Shown: positions 8,600-53,981, numbered from the stretch's first letter. The stretch: DNA of 64,000 nucleotides from Persephonella sp. IF05-L8 (GCF_000703045.1 NZ_JNLJ01000005.1:225023-289022), one strand, 5' to 3'. Notes: a model not told the origin generated them from the letters alone. Translations and numbers: made by a program.

Positions 8600-9343
8600 A
8601 TGGATATCTATCTTCCTCAAAAAAGCTACATAAATAAGAAATTACTTATTATTTCACTACTGATAGGGTTTGTTGTCAATATTGTTTTTCTGTATCTTCT
8701 TGGTTTCTGGACAGCAAATGTTCAACCTATAAAGCAAAAACAGGTAAAAGTTAAATATATTCATTTAAAACCCAAGGAAAAGAAAAAGGTAGTAAAGAAA
8801 AAAATAAAAAAGGAAGCTGTCAAAAAGCCACAGAAACAAAAAATCTCAAAAGGAGAAAAAGTAGCTCCAAAACCTGCTGTACCAGCTATCACACCTGAAC
8901 TGCCAGAAGTTGCAAACCTACCAGAAGAAGAGTTATCCCTTCCTGAAAACGAGATGGATACAGGAGATTTTTCTGATATACCTGTTGAAACTGGAGAGAT
9001 TAAGGAATTCAGAGCGATAACAAAAGGAGAATTTAATCCAACATTTGGGACAGAACTTTCCAAAGTAGATAAAACAGCTACAGGAACAGCTATTGGTAGA
9101 AAACTGATATATAGACCCCCACCACCTTTAATAAAGGCAAAAGTTCCACCTCCCCCTGTAAAAGTAAAACTATGGATAAACAAGGATGGAACAGTATCAA
9201 AAGTAATTCTGCTTGAAACCACCGGAAATAACAAAATAGACCAGATTATAAAAAGATACGTCCAGAGCTGGAAATTCAATGAGATAAAGGAAAACAAAGA
9301 AGAGTGGGCAATAACAACAATAAGATTTAAACCATCTTCCTGA
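8600..9343 (+). CDS. tonB: TonB-family energy transducer
   Basis: 247 residues. One N-terminal membrane helix (about 15-37) is followed by a periplasmic Lys-rich then Pro/Glu-rich linker and a C-terminal TonB domain (about 170-247: PPPPVKVKLWINKDGTVSKV, then IIKRYVQSWKFN). TonB proteins carry proton-motive energy from ExbB/ExbD to outer-membrane receptors. No exbB or exbD is in the window. A receptor-like protein is encoded at 49718. The stop codon overlaps the start of the next permease gene, so the three genes from 8600 to 11780 form an operon. Confidence 0.88.
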   Translation: MDIYLPQKSYINKKLLIISLLIGFVVNIVFLYLLGFWTANVQPIKQKQVKVKYIHLKPKEKKKVVKKKIKKEAVKKPQKQKISKGEKVAPKPAVPAITPELPEVANLPEEELSLPENEMDTGDFSDIPVETGEIKEFRAITKGEFNPTFGTELSKVDKTATGTAIGRKLIYRPPPPLIKAKVPPPPVKVKLWINKDGTVSKVILLETTGNNKIDQIIKRYVQSWKFNEIKENKEEWAITTIRFKPSS

Positions 9344-32386: not shown

Positions 32387-34717
32387 TTATGATATAGGTA
32401 AGGTAGGTGAGGGTTTAGCAAAGTAATATCCTTGAGAGTAATCTATTCCCAGTTTTTCTACCTCTTTTTGTATTTCTTCGTTTTCCACAAATTCTGCAAT
32501 GGTACTTATATTTACTTCTTTTGCAAATGTTACTATGGCTTCTACAATGGCATGGGAAATCTTATTTTCCAGCATTGTTTTAATTAAAGAGCCATCTATC
32601 TTAATATAATCAATGTTTAACTCTACCAGATAAACGAAGTTTGAGTATCCACTACCAAAATCATCAATGGATATTTTTGCTCCTTTTTCTTTTACTTTGT
32701 TAACAAAATCTATAACTTCCTGAGCTCCTTCAATACTCTCATCTTCCAGTAGTTCAAAGGTTATATATTTACATACATCTTTTGTATCAAGTAGCTGAAG
32801 TATAAAGTTTTCCATTTCCACGTTGATAATATCTGACAGAGATAGATTTATTGATAGATTTATTTTGTATTTTCTTGCTGTCTTAAATGCGTTTTGTATT
32901 ACTGTTTTTGATATATCTGTGTATAGTTTATATTTTTTTGCTATCTCAAGGAAATGATATGGAGTATAAACTGTTCCATCTTCATCTATCAACCGAACCA
33001 GAACTTCATATTTTTCAATCTGTCCAGTCTTATTGTTTATAATAGGTTGATAATAATTTACTATTCGTCCGTCTTGAAGAGCAGATTTTATTCTATTTAC
33101 CCATATTAGATTTTCTTTATATTCTGCAATTGCTGAGCTTTCCTCTATGTAACTACTGACTGGTACATTTTCAAGTAATCTTGCATTTTTTAATGCTATA
33201 TCTGCCTTTTGTAATGGGTCGTTCTGAGCAATGGCTATTCCTGCTGATACCCTTAAATTTACTGCCTCATTACCATGCTTGAAAATCATATTATTTATTT
33301 TTGAAACAATATTTTTTATAGCTTTTTCAAATTCTTCAGGGGGAAGATTGTTATTAAGGTCGGCAATAACAAATTCATCACCAAAAATTCTGTATACTTT
33401 TAATTTGGAATGGATTTTTTTTGCTTCTTTTTTGAGAATTTTACCAATAGTTTTGAGTATGTAATCTCCAAACTCATAGCCGAATACATCATTTATTTCT
33501 CTGAAATTGTCTATATTTATGACTGCTATTGTTGCTATACGGTATTTTCCTATATCTTTGTTGAATTTTTCTCTGTTGAACAGACCTGTTAATTTGTCTT
33601 TATATATTTTAAGTATAAGATTTTTCCGTTCTTTCTGAAGGGATTTTTCTTTTGAGGATAACTCTTTTTCTGCTGCAGAAACCTGTCTTAGAAAGAGGAA
33701 ACTTAATATTGCAAGAAGAGAAAATAGAAATCCTCCTGCTGCAGTTGTTGTTAAGATGTCTTTTTTAACTGTCTCTTTGAGGTTTTTTAGCTTTTTCTCA
33801 ATAATCTCTTTTATATCTCCCAGATAGAATATAGATACAATATACATATCCCAGTTGGAGTAATACTTTTTATAGATAAGATAATCTCTATCCTGGGAAA
33901 TTCCCTCTTTGAGATTTTTTATAAAACTAAATTTTTTGCAGGTGGCTGTATCAGAAAGACAGGATTGTGTAAATCCATCTATTAGAAGAATTTGATTTAG
34001 ATTATTTTTCTCCATTTTTTGAATTGTTTTGGCAAATTCTGTTTTAACCTGTTGCCGTAGATATTCTATATAATCTCCAGAACCAATAATCCAGTTAAAT
34101 GGTTCAAATAATTTTAGGTAAGCAATTTTTTTGTAAGGTTTTTTCCCATGACCTGGGAGATACCAGTAATAGCTTACAAATCCACCACCTCTTAAAGCTG
34201 TCAGTAAAAACTCCCTCTGAACATATTTGCCATAGATATCCTGATAATTCCACATTGATTTATTTTCAATTTCAGGAAAGGCAGGATTAGCAAGGACAAT
34301 ACCTGTCGTATCTGCACGGGTAATAAAGTAGTATCCTCTACCACTGAAAAATCTTACTTTTCTTATTGATGCTAAGAATATATTTTGGATTTCTTGGTCT
34401 GAGATTTTTCCTTTAAGAAATAGATAGATTTGTTCAAGCATGGTGTCTGCAATTCCAACAACATCTTTTAGATTGTTTTTTAGTCTTGTTTCCAGCAGAC
34501 TATTTTCAAATTCAGCCAGGGTTATAATCTGGTTAATCTGATTTTCCATTAATTTTTTTCTTTCTTCTATGATTGTAGATTTAAGCTGATTTTTTCCCAG
34601 ATTATATTCCTGTATTTCCTGATATATGTTAAATCCTGTGAAGAATATAAATGCAATAACTGCCAGCAGTATTATCCAGAATAAAACAAGCCTTGAAATA
34701 GGGTCTTTTCTTTTCAT
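32387..34717 (-). CDS. Cache-GGDEF-EAL membrane protein (c-di-GMP turnover)
   Basis: 776 residues. Two membrane helices (about 10-30 and 312-335) flank a periplasmic Cache_2-like sensor (GRGYYFITRADTTGIVLANPAFP). A GGDEF domain follows with a changed signature, FGDEF, and no obvious RxxD inhibitory site. The EAL domain keeps its metal and catalytic residues (EVLVR, INLS, FELLED, IDDFGSGYS, IKIDGS, EFVEN, SQGYYF). It is therefore most likely a phosphodiesterase with a cyclase-like domain that may only bind GTP. Monocistronic by position. Confidence 0.92.
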   Translation of the reverse strand: MKRKDPISRLVLFWIILLAVIAFIFFTGFNIYQEIQEYNLGKNQLKSTIIEERKKLMENQINQIITLAEFENSLLETRLKNNLKDVVGIADTMLEQIYLFLKGKISDQEIQNIFLASIRKVRFFSGRGYYFITRADTTGIVLANPAFPEIENKSMWNYQDIYGKYVQREFLLTALRGGGFVSYYWYLPGHGKKPYKKIAYLKLFEPFNWIIGSGDYIEYLRQQVKTEFAKTIQKMEKNNLNQILLIDGFTQSCLSDTATCKKFSFIKNLKEGISQDRDYLIYKKYYSNWDMYIVSIFYLGDIKEIIEKKLKNLKETVKKDILTTTAAGGFLFSLLAILSFLFLRQVSAAEKELSSKEKSLQKERKNLILKIYKDKLTGLFNREKFNKDIGKYRIATIAVINIDNFREINDVFGYEFGDYILKTIGKILKKEAKKIHSKLKVYRIFGDEFVIADLNNNLPPEEFEKAIKNIVSKINNMIFKHGNEAVNLRVSAGIAIAQNDPLQKADIALKNARLLENVPVSSYIEESSAIAEYKENLIWVNRIKSALQDGRIVNYYQPIINNKTGQIEKYEVLVRLIDEDGTVYTPYHFLEIAKKYKLYTDISKTVIQNAFKTARKYKINLSINLSLSDIINVEMENFILQLLDTKDVCKYITFELLEDESIEGAQEVIDFVNKVKEKGAKISIDDFGSGYSNFVYLVELNIDYIKIDGSLIKTMLENKISHAIVEAIVTFAKEVNISTIAEFVENEEIQKEVEKLGIDYSQGYYFAKPSPTLPIS

Positions 34718-49717: not shown

Positions 49718-51631
49718 ATGAAGAAAAGTATAATTTTTGCAACCTGCGGGGCTTTAATATCAGGCGTTGTTTTTGCAGCATCAGAGGAAAGTATGCTTTC
49801 ACTGATAAAAAAATATGAAGAAGCTGCAGACCTATCCAAAAAAACCAGAGAAGAAAGTCTGGGACATATCATAGTTTATACACGAAAAGAATTAGAAACA
49901 ATGCGTGTCTATACCTTAACGGATTTACTCCGAATATTACCTTTAAATAACAATTTACCTAATAATTATGGAGTAGAAACTCTTATATTTCCCGGAGGAG
50001 GAAATAGTATTCCTATTATTTATAGATTATATATAGATGACCATGAAGTAAGTTCAATAAATACCTCCAGTCCATTTTTGACCTACGATAGATATCCTTT
50101 AGACCATATAGACCATGTGGAAGTCTATTATTCATCTGGAGCAATAAGTGTTACAACAGAGCCTTCAAAAATCATAATAAAGTTATATACCAAGAAACCT
50201 GAAAGAGAAAATACTACAAAATTAAGAGGTTCTCTAAGTTCAAAAAAATCATATACATTAGACCTTTTTTCTGCTTATAAACGGGGGAAAAATATTTCTT
50301 ATCTAATTAATTTCAGCAAAGCATACTTTAGATTTCCCAGACCTGAAATTAATGGTCAACCTGTAAGTAGAAACCAGTTTAGAAAAGATTTATTTCTCAA
50401 GTTTATTTATTATAAAACCGAGATTGAACTTTCTTTAGCTGATGTAAAAAGGGGAAGTTTTTTTGGTATGTCTGCCGATAAATCTCCAGACTATGCTTAT
50501 ACCCACTCTTTTGATAGTTACTTAGTACTTTCCCAGAAATTTGATAGAAATACGAAACTTGTTATTTCGTATGATTTCCAAAAAAGAAAACATAAAGAAC
50601 AAAACAAAGCAAGCGATGGAGGGCTTATTATCCCTAAACTTTTCAATCCATCTCAACCTCCTATTGTGGAATATTATGAGAGTTTAAATCTTCACAAATT
50701 TTCTGTTGTTCTGAATAAAAAGATAAAAACCACTAAAAATCTTCTTTTACTGGGAACTTTCTGGAGATATTATGCAGAAGACACGCTGAACAACTATTAT
50801 ATTGATGCTTTAAATACAAAACATGATATAACAGATACCCCCAGGGTAAAAAATTATTATATAGGCTCGGTATATATGGAAAACAGCTATAATATAAATG
50901 ATAAGAATTTAATAATTTTAGGAGCAAATCTGGATAAATTTAAATTTTATGGTCAAAAAAGCAAAGATGAATTAAACTTAAGAGCCGGGTTTATTTCTTT
51001 TATAAACTCAAAGTTAATGTTTAAAAGTTTCATTTCAAGATATTATGTTATTCCTTCTCTACTGATGATTGAGCTGTCTGAAAATAATAAACTTAAGCCT
51101 ATGAAAGTTAATGCATATACAGGAGAGGTAAGATATAAATCAAAACACAATGAAATAAAAGTTTTTGCAGGATATTATCGCATAGATGATATAGTAAAGT
51201 TGGATTATGAGAAGATGGTGTTAATTAACAGTGGTGGCTCTGCGAACTTCCATGAGTACGGAGTTACCCTACGGCGAAATTTTACTGATTACTTATTCTC
51301 AGAGATTAATTATTGGTTTACAGATGTTGGCAAAAATTGTTTTTCTCCAGATAGGGGAGGTTATTTTAGATTAGGAGGAAATTTTGATAAACTGAAGTTA
51401 TACACTGACCTTGTCTATAAAGGGGATTATAAACCTTATGGTATACATATCAAAGAAAGTTATAATCTCAGGCTTTCTGTTTCTTATAATCTGCCTGAGG
51501 GATGGAATTTTACACTCACAGGAGATAACTTACTTAAAAGAGCTGAAAAGAAGGCTTATCTGGGTTTAGATAAAGGAGCTGTATCACTTTATTATAGACA
51601 AATAATATTTACGGTAGAGAAACTATTTTGA
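49718..51631 (+). CDS. TonB-dependent-receptor-like outer-membrane protein
   Basis: 637 residues. A signal peptide ends near VVFAA (about 20), followed by a plug domain: TREESLGHIIVYTRKELETM, TLTDLLRILP and the VEVYYSSGAISVTT segment. The rest alternates aromatic and polar residues as beta-barrel strands and ends in Phe, the usual outer-membrane sorting signal. A helical segment precedes the plug instead of an obvious TonB box. It is followed with overlap by a periplasmic protein and a c-di-GMP enzyme, suggesting a signalling rather than uptake role (inference). Confidence 0.78.
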   Translation: MKKSIIFATCGALISGVVFAASEESMLSLIKKYEEAADLSKKTREESLGHIIVYTRKELETMRVYTLTDLLRILPLNNNLPNNYGVETLIFPGGGNSIPIIYRLYIDDHEVSSINTSSPFLTYDRYPLDHIDHVEVYYSSGAISVTTEPSKIIIKLYTKKPERENTTKLRGSLSSKKSYTLDLFSAYKRGKNISYLINFSKAYFRFPRPEINGQPVSRNQFRKDLFLKFIYYKTEIELSLADVKRGSFFGMSADKSPDYAYTHSFDSYLVLSQKFDRNTKLVISYDFQKRKHKEQNKASDGGLIIPKLFNPSQPPIVEYYESLNLHKFSVVLNKKIKTTKNLLLLGTFWRYYAEDTLNNYYIDALNTKHDITDTPRVKNYYIGSVYMENSYNINDKNLIILGANLDKFKFYGQKSKDELNLRAGFISFINSKLMFKSFISRYYVIPSLLMIELSENNKLKPMKVNAYTGEVRYKSKHNEIKVFAGYYRIDDIVKLDYEKMVLINSGGSANFHEYGVTLRRNFTDYLFSEINYWFTDVGKNCFSPDRGGYFRLGGNFDKLKLYTDLVYKGDYKPYGIHIKESYNLRLSVSYNLPEGWNFTLTGDNLLKRAEKKAYLGLDKGAVSLYYRQIIFTVEKLF

Positions 51632-52086
51632 AAAAGATAGTAATTTTTTTGGTTTTTGTATATGTACTAACTGCATTTGCAGTTGATATAGATGCTGCAA
51701 CTAAGCTGGAGATAAAAATATTAGAAAAACTGGTTCTTGACATTACAGGTAAAAAGAACCCCTTGGTTTATTTTATAGGTCTTTCTAAAAAAAAGGTGAA
51801 TTTACTCACCAGGTATTCTGTATTAAAAAAAGCCAAAACTGAAGCAAGTGCAGATTTTGTATTTATTAAAGATATAAATAAAAAATTCTATGCCACAAAA
51901 CCTACTGTAGCTTTGGATTATTCTTCCTTTAAAAAATGTGAAAATTGCATAGGGCTTTTTACATGGAGAAATGGAAGACCCATATTGCTTTTAATAGAGG
52001 AAAACCTGATTAAATTCCATATATCTTTACCGGAAGATTATAAATATTTTATTGAAAGTAAGAATTTTAATATCGGAAAAAAATGA
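51628..52086 (+). CDS. Small periplasmic protein between the receptor and c-di-GMP genes
   Basis: 152 residues, signal peptide about 1-18. The mature part resembles small YfiR-like (DUF4154-type) periplasmic proteins: a central AxxDFVFI strand, then KKCENCIGLFTWRNGRPILLL and a C-terminal LIKFHISLPEDYK. A CxxC pair (CENC) could form a disulfide, as reported for YfiR. The start is TTG overlapping the receptor stop by 4 bases, and its end overlaps the next gene by 4 bases. In YfiBNR systems the periplasmic protein represses a membrane cyclase. A similar job here is inference. Confidence 0.6.
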   Translation: MKKIVIFLVFVYVLTAFAVDIDAATKLEIKILEKLVLDITGKKNPLVYFIGLSKKKVNLLTRYSVLKKAKTEASADFVFIKDINKKFYATKPTVALDYSSFKKCENCIGLFTWRNGRPILLLIEENLIKFHISLPEDYKYFIESKNFNIGKK

Positions 52087-53981
52087 ATTTTGATTTTAAA
52101 TATAAAAAAAGAAAATTTATATATACAATTTTAGGACTTATAGGCTCTCTTTTAGCCATTCTTTATATTTACAGTAGTATTGTGCCTGCTATTGAGGAAA
52201 AAATAGAGAAAAAAATTATATATAATTCAACTATAGATGTTATCAACGCTATAAAAAATACAATTCGCATGAACCTTCCAAAAGAAGACTTTATTAAAAA
52301 AGTATTGAAAGACAATAACTATAGAAAATCTCTATCCAAAGCCTTATCTGTATTTTTGTCAGATAGACTTGAATACATTTTCTTAATTTTTAGAGATAGA
52401 GGTAAGTATAGATATCTTCTGGATATAAGCAAAAATAATGATAAGCTCTATCCAGGTTTCCTATTTGTACCCCTTTACGATGAAGAAAAAGTATTAGAAA
52501 AGGTAATTAAAGAGAAAAATGAACAGGTTGTAATTCACAAAGATATAAATACTATAGGTATTACCTATTACTTGCCAATAATCCAGGAAAACAAGGTTAA
52601 ATCAGTATTAATCGCTGACTTCTCTTTTGAAACATTAGGAGAGATAAAAAATCTAATGAGCTTTATAAAAGAAATATTATTAGCTGCAGGTATAACCATA
52701 GTAGGATTAATACTTTTTTCTGGCTATTCTTTTTATCGGAATGTTCTCTTAAAGGAAAAGATATTTATTGATTCTCTTACCGGTGTTTATAACAGAAGTT
52801 ATCTGGAAAATTTATATAACTCATTAAATCTAAATGATTATGTTATTTTACTTTTAGACGTAGATTATTTCAAAAACATAAATGATACCTACGGACATCA
52901 AGTTGGAGACGAAATCTTAAAAAATGTCTCAGAGATTTTAAAAGAGAGTTTACGGGGAGAAGATTATATAATTCGGTATGGAGGTGAAGAATTTCTTATT
53001 CTACTCAAAAAAAGTGAAGAGGATAAAGAAGGAAAGTGGGCATTACACGTAGCAGAAAAACTTCTCCAGAAAATAAGGACACACAAATACAAAAATATTA
53101 AAATAACTGCCTCTATTGGTATTAATTTAAATGCTGCCGAAGCAAGAAACCTAACAGATGCAATAAAAAAAGCAGATATAGCACTTTATAAAGCTAAGAA
53201 TAGTGGTAGGGATAGACTTGAAATATATTCTCTCCATGAAGAAAAAGGAAATATTACACTTGCTGAACTAAAAGAAGTATTGGAAAGTAATAAAATTGAA
53301 TGTTGGTATCAGCCCATTATTAATATGAAGACTGGAGAGCCTCTTTATTTTGAGGCTTTAGCGAGAATATATCATCAGGGAGAGTATCTGGTACCAGCAA
53401 GGTTTATAGATTTAATAAAAGGAACATTTATGTATGCGAAATTTACCAAAGCTATAATTGAATATAATATAAAAATACTGCAAGAAAATCCTCAGTTGAA
53501 AGTCAGTATAAATATGTCTCCTTCTGACTTTGTAAATGAAACTACTATAGAGCTTCTACTCTCGGCAAATAAAGATATAGTTAGAAGGCTGAAATTGGAA
53601 GTTCTTGAAACAGAGGAAATTCATAACTATAAATCCTTAAAAACAAATATCAATAAATTAGTAGAAGCCGGATATCAAATAGTGCTGGATGATTTTGGGG
53701 CTGGATATGTAGATTTTTACTATATAACAGATATAGATGCAAAGTATTTAAAGTTAGACGGTTCAATGATTAGACAATTGACAGACAATGAAAGGTATTA
53801 CAAACTTACAAAACATCTTGTTTCCTTCTGTAAGGATATGGATAAAACCCCAATAGCAGAATTTGTGGAAAATAAGAAAATTCTTGACATATTACTTGAA
53901 TTAGGAATAGAGTATGGACAGGGCTACTATTTTTCACGACCTATTCCCATTGAAGAAGTTATTAAAAAATATTTTTCTTGA
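52083..53981 (+). CDS. Membrane GGDEF-EAL protein (c-di-GMP cyclase/phosphodiesterase)
   Basis: 632 residues. Helices at about 12-32 and 195-218 enclose a periplasmic domain of about 160 residues without an obvious Cache signature. GGDEF is intact (RYGGEEFLIL, metal Asp in LLLDVDYFKNIND). EAL is intact too (FEALAR, INMSPSD, LEVLETEE, LDDFGAGY, LKLDGS, EFVEN, GQGYYF). Both activities are thus possible. The operon with a receptor-like and a periplasmic protein suggests control across the envelope. Confidence 0.9.
   Translation: MNFDFKYKKRKFIYTILGLIGSLLAILYIYSSIVPAIEEKIEKKIIYNSTIDVINAIKNTIRMNLPKEDFIKKVLKDNNYRKSLSKALSVFLSDRLEYIFLIFRDRGKYRYLLDISKNNDKLYPGFLFVPLYDEEKVLEKVIKEKNEQVVIHKDINTIGITYYLPIIQENKVKSVLIADFSFETLGEIKNLMSFIKEILLAAGITIVGLILFSGYSFYRNVLLKEKIFIDSLTGVYNRSYLENLYNSLNLNDYVILLLDVDYFKNINDTYGHQVGDEILKNVSEILKESLRGEDYIIRYGGEEFLILLKKSEEDKEGKWALHVAEKLLQKIRTHKYKNIKITASIGINLNAAEARNLTDAIKKADIALYKAKNSGRDRLEIYSLHEEKGNITLAELKEVLESNKIECWYQPIINMKTGEPLYFEALARIYHQGEYLVPARFIDLIKGTFMYAKFTKAIIEYNIKILQENPQLKVSINMSPSDFVNETTIELLLSANKDIVRRLKLEVLETEEIHNYKSLKTNINKLVEAGYQIVLDDFGAGYVDFYYITDIDAKYLKLDGSMIRQLTDNERYYKLTKHLVSFCKDMDKTPIAEFVENKKILDILLELGIEYGQGYYFSRPIPIEEVIKKYFS

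Follow-up and report, generated by a model that had tools for sequence, protein, structure and literature searches.

A conserved trio of TonB-receptor-like barrel, predicted YfiR-fold protein and GGDEF-EAL enzyme as a probable envelope-spanning signalling unit in Aquificota and Campylobacterota

This study concerns three genes of Persephonella sp. IF05-L8 that lie in a row on the plus strand, at positions 49718-53981 of a 64,000-nucleotide stretch of DNA (NZ_JNLJ01000005.1:225023-289022, here referred to as the window). They encode, in this order, an outer-membrane barrel resembling TonB-dependent receptors, a small periplasmic protein, and an inner-membrane GGDEF-EAL enzyme of cyclic dimeric guanosine monophosphate (c-di-GMP) signaling. 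Homologous trios are found in both Aquificota and Campylobacterota, and the small protein is predicted to adopt the fold of YfiR, the periplasmic component of the YfiBNR system. On balance, it is probable that the three genes encode one envelope-spanning signaling unit that functions in the manner of YfiBNR, albeit with other components. To our knowledge, the input sensed by most c-di-GMP enzymes, and the path by which a signal travels from the surface to the enzyme, are open questions. With the trio, a defined path from the cell surface to c-di-GMP could be tested in a single operon, and a periplasmic family that lacks annotation gains a likely role.

The three genes form a genuine, conserved unit. 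In the window, the barrel gene (49718-51631, 637 amino acids, ATG start), the gene for the small protein (51628-52086, 152 amino acids including a signal peptide, TTG start) and the enzyme gene (52083-53981, 632 amino acids, ATG start) overlap by exactly 4 bases at each junction (TTGA at 51628-51631 and ATGA at 52083-52086), as had been stated in the original prediction, which was made from the sequence alone. That prediction had also staked itself on recurrence outside the source genome, and such recurrence was found in both phyla: within the order of the source genome, 43 of 112 genomes carry the small protein, and among 298 sampled Campylobacterota 54 do. A conserved-peptide scan of 84,980 species yielded 50 loci of the small protein, all in Aquificota or Campylobacterota (Sulfurimonas, Sulfurovum, Nitratiruptor, and others), with the proviso that the scan rested on a narrow alignment and could have missed phyla in which the WxxGR motif described below has diverged. 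According to blastp, the enzyme adjoins the small protein at 48 of these 50 loci and the barrel at 45, and where a partner is missing this mostly coincides with a contig end. In 40 complete homologous trios, all in the same order, the first junction ranges from -20 to +3 bases and the second from -20 to -1 (one value of -154 was set aside as a start-codon artefact); junctions this tight across 40 trios indicate that the arrangement is not due to chance. The flanking genes vary between genomes and the trio stays intact, and up to three copies occur per genome, each with all three genes. A variant was found in two genomes of one Aquificota genus of the sister family (L035 and L044, 2847-6356), in which a GGDEF-only gene lies upstream of the barrel gene and no EAL protein follows. 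Thus, the barrel and the small protein can stay paired even where gene order and output differ.

Searches of Pfam and NCBIfam assign the small protein to no family. In particular, PF13689, the YfiR family, was matched neither by the protein itself, nor in the families listed for 35 relatives, nor anywhere in the host genome. Its signature is the motif WxxGR (W113-R117, 51964-51978, plus strand), of which W, G, and R are kept in all 35 sequences from the two phyla. An AlphaFold2 model with a pLDDT of 90.3 (predicted local distance difference test; 27-sequence input; like all AlphaFold models in this study, a single chain) was compared with solved structures, and the top 17 Foldseek matches in the PDB were YfiR, single-domain substrate-binding-like proteins, and the two-lobe Vibrio protein 3lkv, with one aminotransferase as the exception. 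In VIA-align, the YfiR entries 4xjy, 4zhu, 4yn9, 4yn7, 4yna, 4zhy, 6ikk, and 5eb1 reached Z 8.5-9.8 at a root-mean-square deviation (rmsd) of 3.1-3.8 over 119-122 residues (e.g., 4xjy with rmsd 3.5 over 121 of 147 residues), and unrelated PDB chains stayed at Z ≤5.7. The aminotransferase matches (Z ≤5.7) were read as a common alpha/beta arrangement. By this modelling, the small protein has a predicted YfiR fold, with YfiR as its best match among solved structures; a PDB profile search from the sequence itself returned nothing. The best-conserved stretch is the C-terminal third. In YfiR, the contact surface for YfiB, which has been proposed to serve for YfiN too, is also mostly C-terminal (F151, E163, I169, and Q187; PMC4887326), a correspondence that is positional only.

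Both catalytic motif sets of the enzyme are intact at the sequence level, which agrees with what had been predicted for its two halves. The GGDEF domain (52764-53216, plus strand, from residue 228; Pfam 1.2e-40) carries the active-site motif GGEEF at residues 300-304 and, five residues ahead of it, an RxxD I-site (R291-D294), and the EAL domain (53265-53942, plus strand, from residue 395; Pfam 2.6e-55) carries EALAR at 424 as well as N477, DD536-537, K557, E593, and Q613, i.e., the metal and catalytic residues. In the 40 complete trios, the EAL motif is kept in all and the GGDEF motif in 33, the remaining seven reading AGEEF, SGEEF, GGTEF, NGAEF, or GGAEF. The AlphaFold2 model of residues 1-222 (pLDDT 92.5) places a single Cache/PAS-like domain (approximately residues 36-190; 52188-52652, plus strand) between two membrane helices, and this domain is predicted to serve as a periplasmic sensor. 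Its closest structures are WalK sensor domains, compared as isolated domains (Z 11.5-12.2; best match Z 12.2 with rmsd 2.9 over 141 aligned residues); YfiN is not among the structural matches listed, which is no evidence against kinship. D114 and P165 of the sensor are invariant, and R110, S116, T161, and D179 are nearly so. No Pfam HAMP match was obtained in the enzyme, and the GGDEF domain begins soon after the second membrane helix. A second GGDEF-EAL-like protein of 776 amino acids is encoded elsewhere in the window (32387-34717, minus strand), apparently without a link to a barrel.

The barrel is, as judged from profile matches, a member of the TonB-dependent receptor superfamily with plug plus barrel. 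It matches the Pfam family TonB_dep_Rec_b-barrel above cut-off (3.5e-7), and its family profile finds the colicin I receptor Cir (5e-8) and BtuB (1.4e-7) among solved structures. The Pfam Plug match falls under the cut-off in the window protein (0.19) and is backed by matches in 31 of 34 relatives, so that a plug domain can be assigned to residues 46-140 (49853-50137, plus strand). The TonB-receptor-like nature of the first component, as originally proposed, is thereby confirmed. Directly before the plug, the mature protein has a conserved N-terminal segment, LLxxYxxxxxLxxKTxxESxGH (49793-49867, plus strand; alignment of 40 proteins), in which L29, L30, Y33, L39, T43, E46, and G49 are near-invariant. 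No TonB box was recognised by eye in the 40 aligned N-termini, for which no dedicated detector was run, and no Pfam match to the N-terminal signaling domain of transducers was found in the window barrel or 34 relatives. TonB and ExbD are encoded in the host genome, making an energised function of the barrel possible. The window also holds a weak match to the TonB C-terminal domain in an open frame of 250 residues (9158-9331, plus strand). An extra barrel also occurs at other loci, in tandem at L048 and as a divergent one at L039, L046, L055, and L056.

An independent comparison is offered by loci of true YfiR proteins, i.e., those matching PF13689. In Campylobacterota, a TonB-type receptor gene is adjacent in 14 of 16 such loci, in many cases along with a GGDEF or kinase gene. 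The order receptor-YfiR-GGDEF-EAL occurs at L117 and L128, receptor-YfiR-GGDEF at L123 and L126, and GGDEF-YfiR-receptor at L116; at L130, the receptor is cut by the contig end. Two YfiR domains are fused to the signaling enzyme, one to GGDEF beside a TonB-type receptor gene (L121:2248-3792) and one to a hybrid histidine kinase beside a divergent one (L122:2957-5509). A further type of output is found at L118:1218-5557, where YfiR, a TonB-type receptor, and a CHASE8-SpoIIE phosphatase protein are encoded in a row. On Alphaproteobacterial plasmids, the order is receptor-YfiR-kinase at L132 and L134, and at L133 two unnamed genes come after the receptor gene, at the position of the YfiR match. 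The fusions speak for an action of the YfiR fold on the enzyme, and the adjacency speaks for the receptor as the input. Taken with the trio, the association with a receptor is thus seen for two sequence-distinct kinds of periplasmic protein.

How such a unit might operate can be outlined by analogy. The YfiR-fold protein would bind the Cache/PAS-like domain of the enzyme and thereby determine how c-di-GMP synthesis is balanced against breakdown. The periplasmic face of the barrel, consisting of the conserved N-terminal segment and the plug, would bind the same small protein, upon an extracellular ligand occupying or moving the barrel, or upon action of TonB. Binding to the barrel might then release or present the small protein, amounting to a hand-over between barrel and enzyme. 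By default, the small protein may be expected to repress synthesis, as YfiR does with YfiN; that it controls the phosphodiesterase instead is about as plausible, since none of the complete trios compared departs from the EAL motif and seven depart from GGDEF. Recurrence across two deep phyla suggests that this is probably a conserved, little-studied route from an outside signal to the c-di-GMP pool. A wider proposition, which is tentative and for which we regard the case as nearly balanced, is that a widespread class of TonB-receptor-like barrels are outer-membrane sensors foremost, not transporters, and use a YfiR-fold messenger to relay their occupancy across the periplasm to c-di-GMP enzymes or kinases, the trio of Aquificota and Campylobacterota being an ancient c-di-GMP-specific branch. 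Many annotated TonB-dependent receptors beside YfiR-family genes might accordingly be signaling parts.

Several observations weigh against the YfiBNR-like reading. One lobe of periplasmic binding proteins likewise has the YfiR fold, and a function can therefore not be read from the fold alone. Homology between the small protein and PF13689 at the sequence level was considered and rejected as evidence: an hhalign probability of 82-90% was obtained with signal peptides included and vanished once they were removed, the signal-peptide-free comparison with PF13689 proteins giving 16.6-17.4, against 17.9 and 21.7 for the best column-shuffled controls. The fold is therefore shared, with common descent from YfiR unproven. 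Lastly, the correlation of pairwise distances within the trio (barrel and small protein, r 0.84; small protein and enzyme, r 0.89; barrel and enzyme, r 0.91), which speaks for co-inheritance and thereby for the unit, would also be expected for any genes inherited together.

The alternative that survives best, albeit an unlikely one, is nutrient uptake with coupled sensing. Here, the barrel would be a working TonB-dependent transporter and the small protein a single-lobe substrate-binding co-receptor, not a repressor, which delivers the ligand, once imported, to the Cache domain, the enzyme thus reading a periplasmic ligand. Small molecules are the usual ligands of Cache domains, and the conserved sensor residues of the enzyme would suit such a role, as would the presence of TonB and ExbD in the genome. 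The small protein also resembles in its fold the single-domain substrate-binding-like proteins from Rhodothermus marinus (Z 7.7-9.0) as well as 3lkv and 3lft, two-lobe binding proteins (rmsd 6-7) that are among its best matches, and single-domain binding proteins are encoded close to chemoreceptor genes (PMC10805632). Against this, no TonB box was recognised in the 40 barrels, which have the conserved segment at the place expected for one, a single lobe has no interlobe cleft, and no transport or catabolic gene accompanies the trio in the neighborhoods read. YfiB is known to report cell-wall stress, and on this model the barrel could instead be an envelope-integrity sensor that binds no solute and reports on barrel assembly or the state of the outer membrane by sequestering the small protein. 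The absence of a recognised TonB box would agree with this, but all members keep a full-length barrel with plug, and a pure stress sensor would presumably not need large extracellular-facing regions, making this improbable. That the genes are mere genomic company, i.e., a transporter, an unrelated periplasmic protein, and a c-di-GMP enzyme united by common inheritance without functional coupling, is very improbable, as the order holds in two phyla despite changing flanks and with overlapping starts and stops, and the association is seen again, independently, at the analogous YfiR loci, fusions included.

As to its setting, the trio of the window is preceded at 56 bases by a gene for an AddA/UvrD-type nuclease-helicase and followed at 55 bases by a trpG/pabA-type gene, both named from sequence. 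The host genome (1.83 Mb) contains a second complete trio (C1:535.4-539.6 kb, L029) with identities of 28% (barrel), 28% (small protein), and 36% (enzyme) to the first, and a Persephonella metagenome-assembled genome has a locus that is 99-100% identical to this second copy. A third barrel paralogue (C1, approximately 626.5-628.4 kb; L135:1994-3886) stands alone, without small protein or enzyme. With 18 GGDEF and three PilZ matches, c-di-GMP signaling is well represented in this organism.

Compared with known systems, the barrel shares plug and barrel with Cir and BtuB by profile match and differs from them by its extra N-terminal segment, the lack of a recognised TonB box, and a plug without the usual RGP...GVINIIT-type motif. 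With FecA-type TonB-dependent transducers it shares the presumed inward signaling of a TonB-type barrel; unlike these, it has no Pfam signaling-domain match and its partner is a c-di-GMP enzyme, and no sigma/anti-sigma pair was found among the genes neighboring the window trio. The single-domain substrate-binding protein of R. marinus (5z6v and 6k1x; PMC10805632) has the single-lobe fold and a gene near a signaling receptor gene in common with the small protein, but such proteins are reported near chemoreceptor genes. The PF13689 loci of Campylobacterota and Alphaproteobacteria also combine a TonB-type receptor, a YfiR-fold protein, and a membrane signaling enzyme, and differ in having a true PF13689 protein and canonical plug motifs, in being partly fused or reordered, and in outputs that include a kinase or SpoIIE-type phosphatase. 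A description of these loci, or of the trio's arrangement of receptor, YfiR fold, and GGDEF, was not found in the open-access literature searched, which did not extend to Table S4 (divergent Yfi systems) of PMC3375315. The closest parallels are YfiBNR of Pseudomonas aeruginosa and HmsCDE of Yersinia, in which an outer-membrane part and a periplasmic YfiR-fold protein are likewise encoded together with an inner-membrane GGDEF protein that has a PAS/Cache-like periplasmic domain. The outer-membrane part of these systems is, however, a Pal-like lipoprotein (YfiB) and not a TonB-receptor-type barrel, and the trio has a periplasmic protein that PF13689 does not recognise and an enzyme with an additional EAL domain and no HAMP match. 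The likeness to the YfiBNR layout drawn in the original prediction thus holds for the predicted fold of the small protein and for the type of neighborhood that true YfiR proteins share, and not for YfiBNR in the strict sense; as an analogy it is well supported by anatomy. With neither PF13689 nor YfiB found, the trio is to be regarded as a new form of Yfi-type tripartite signaling rather than as YfiBNR. YfiR-YfiN is described by Malone and colleagues (PMC3375315) as a modular core with varying inputs and outputs, GGDEF-EAL included, and divergent Yfi systems are reported to be mostly without YfiB. By its anatomy, the trio fits this modular core as a form in which a barrel would supply the outer-membrane input.

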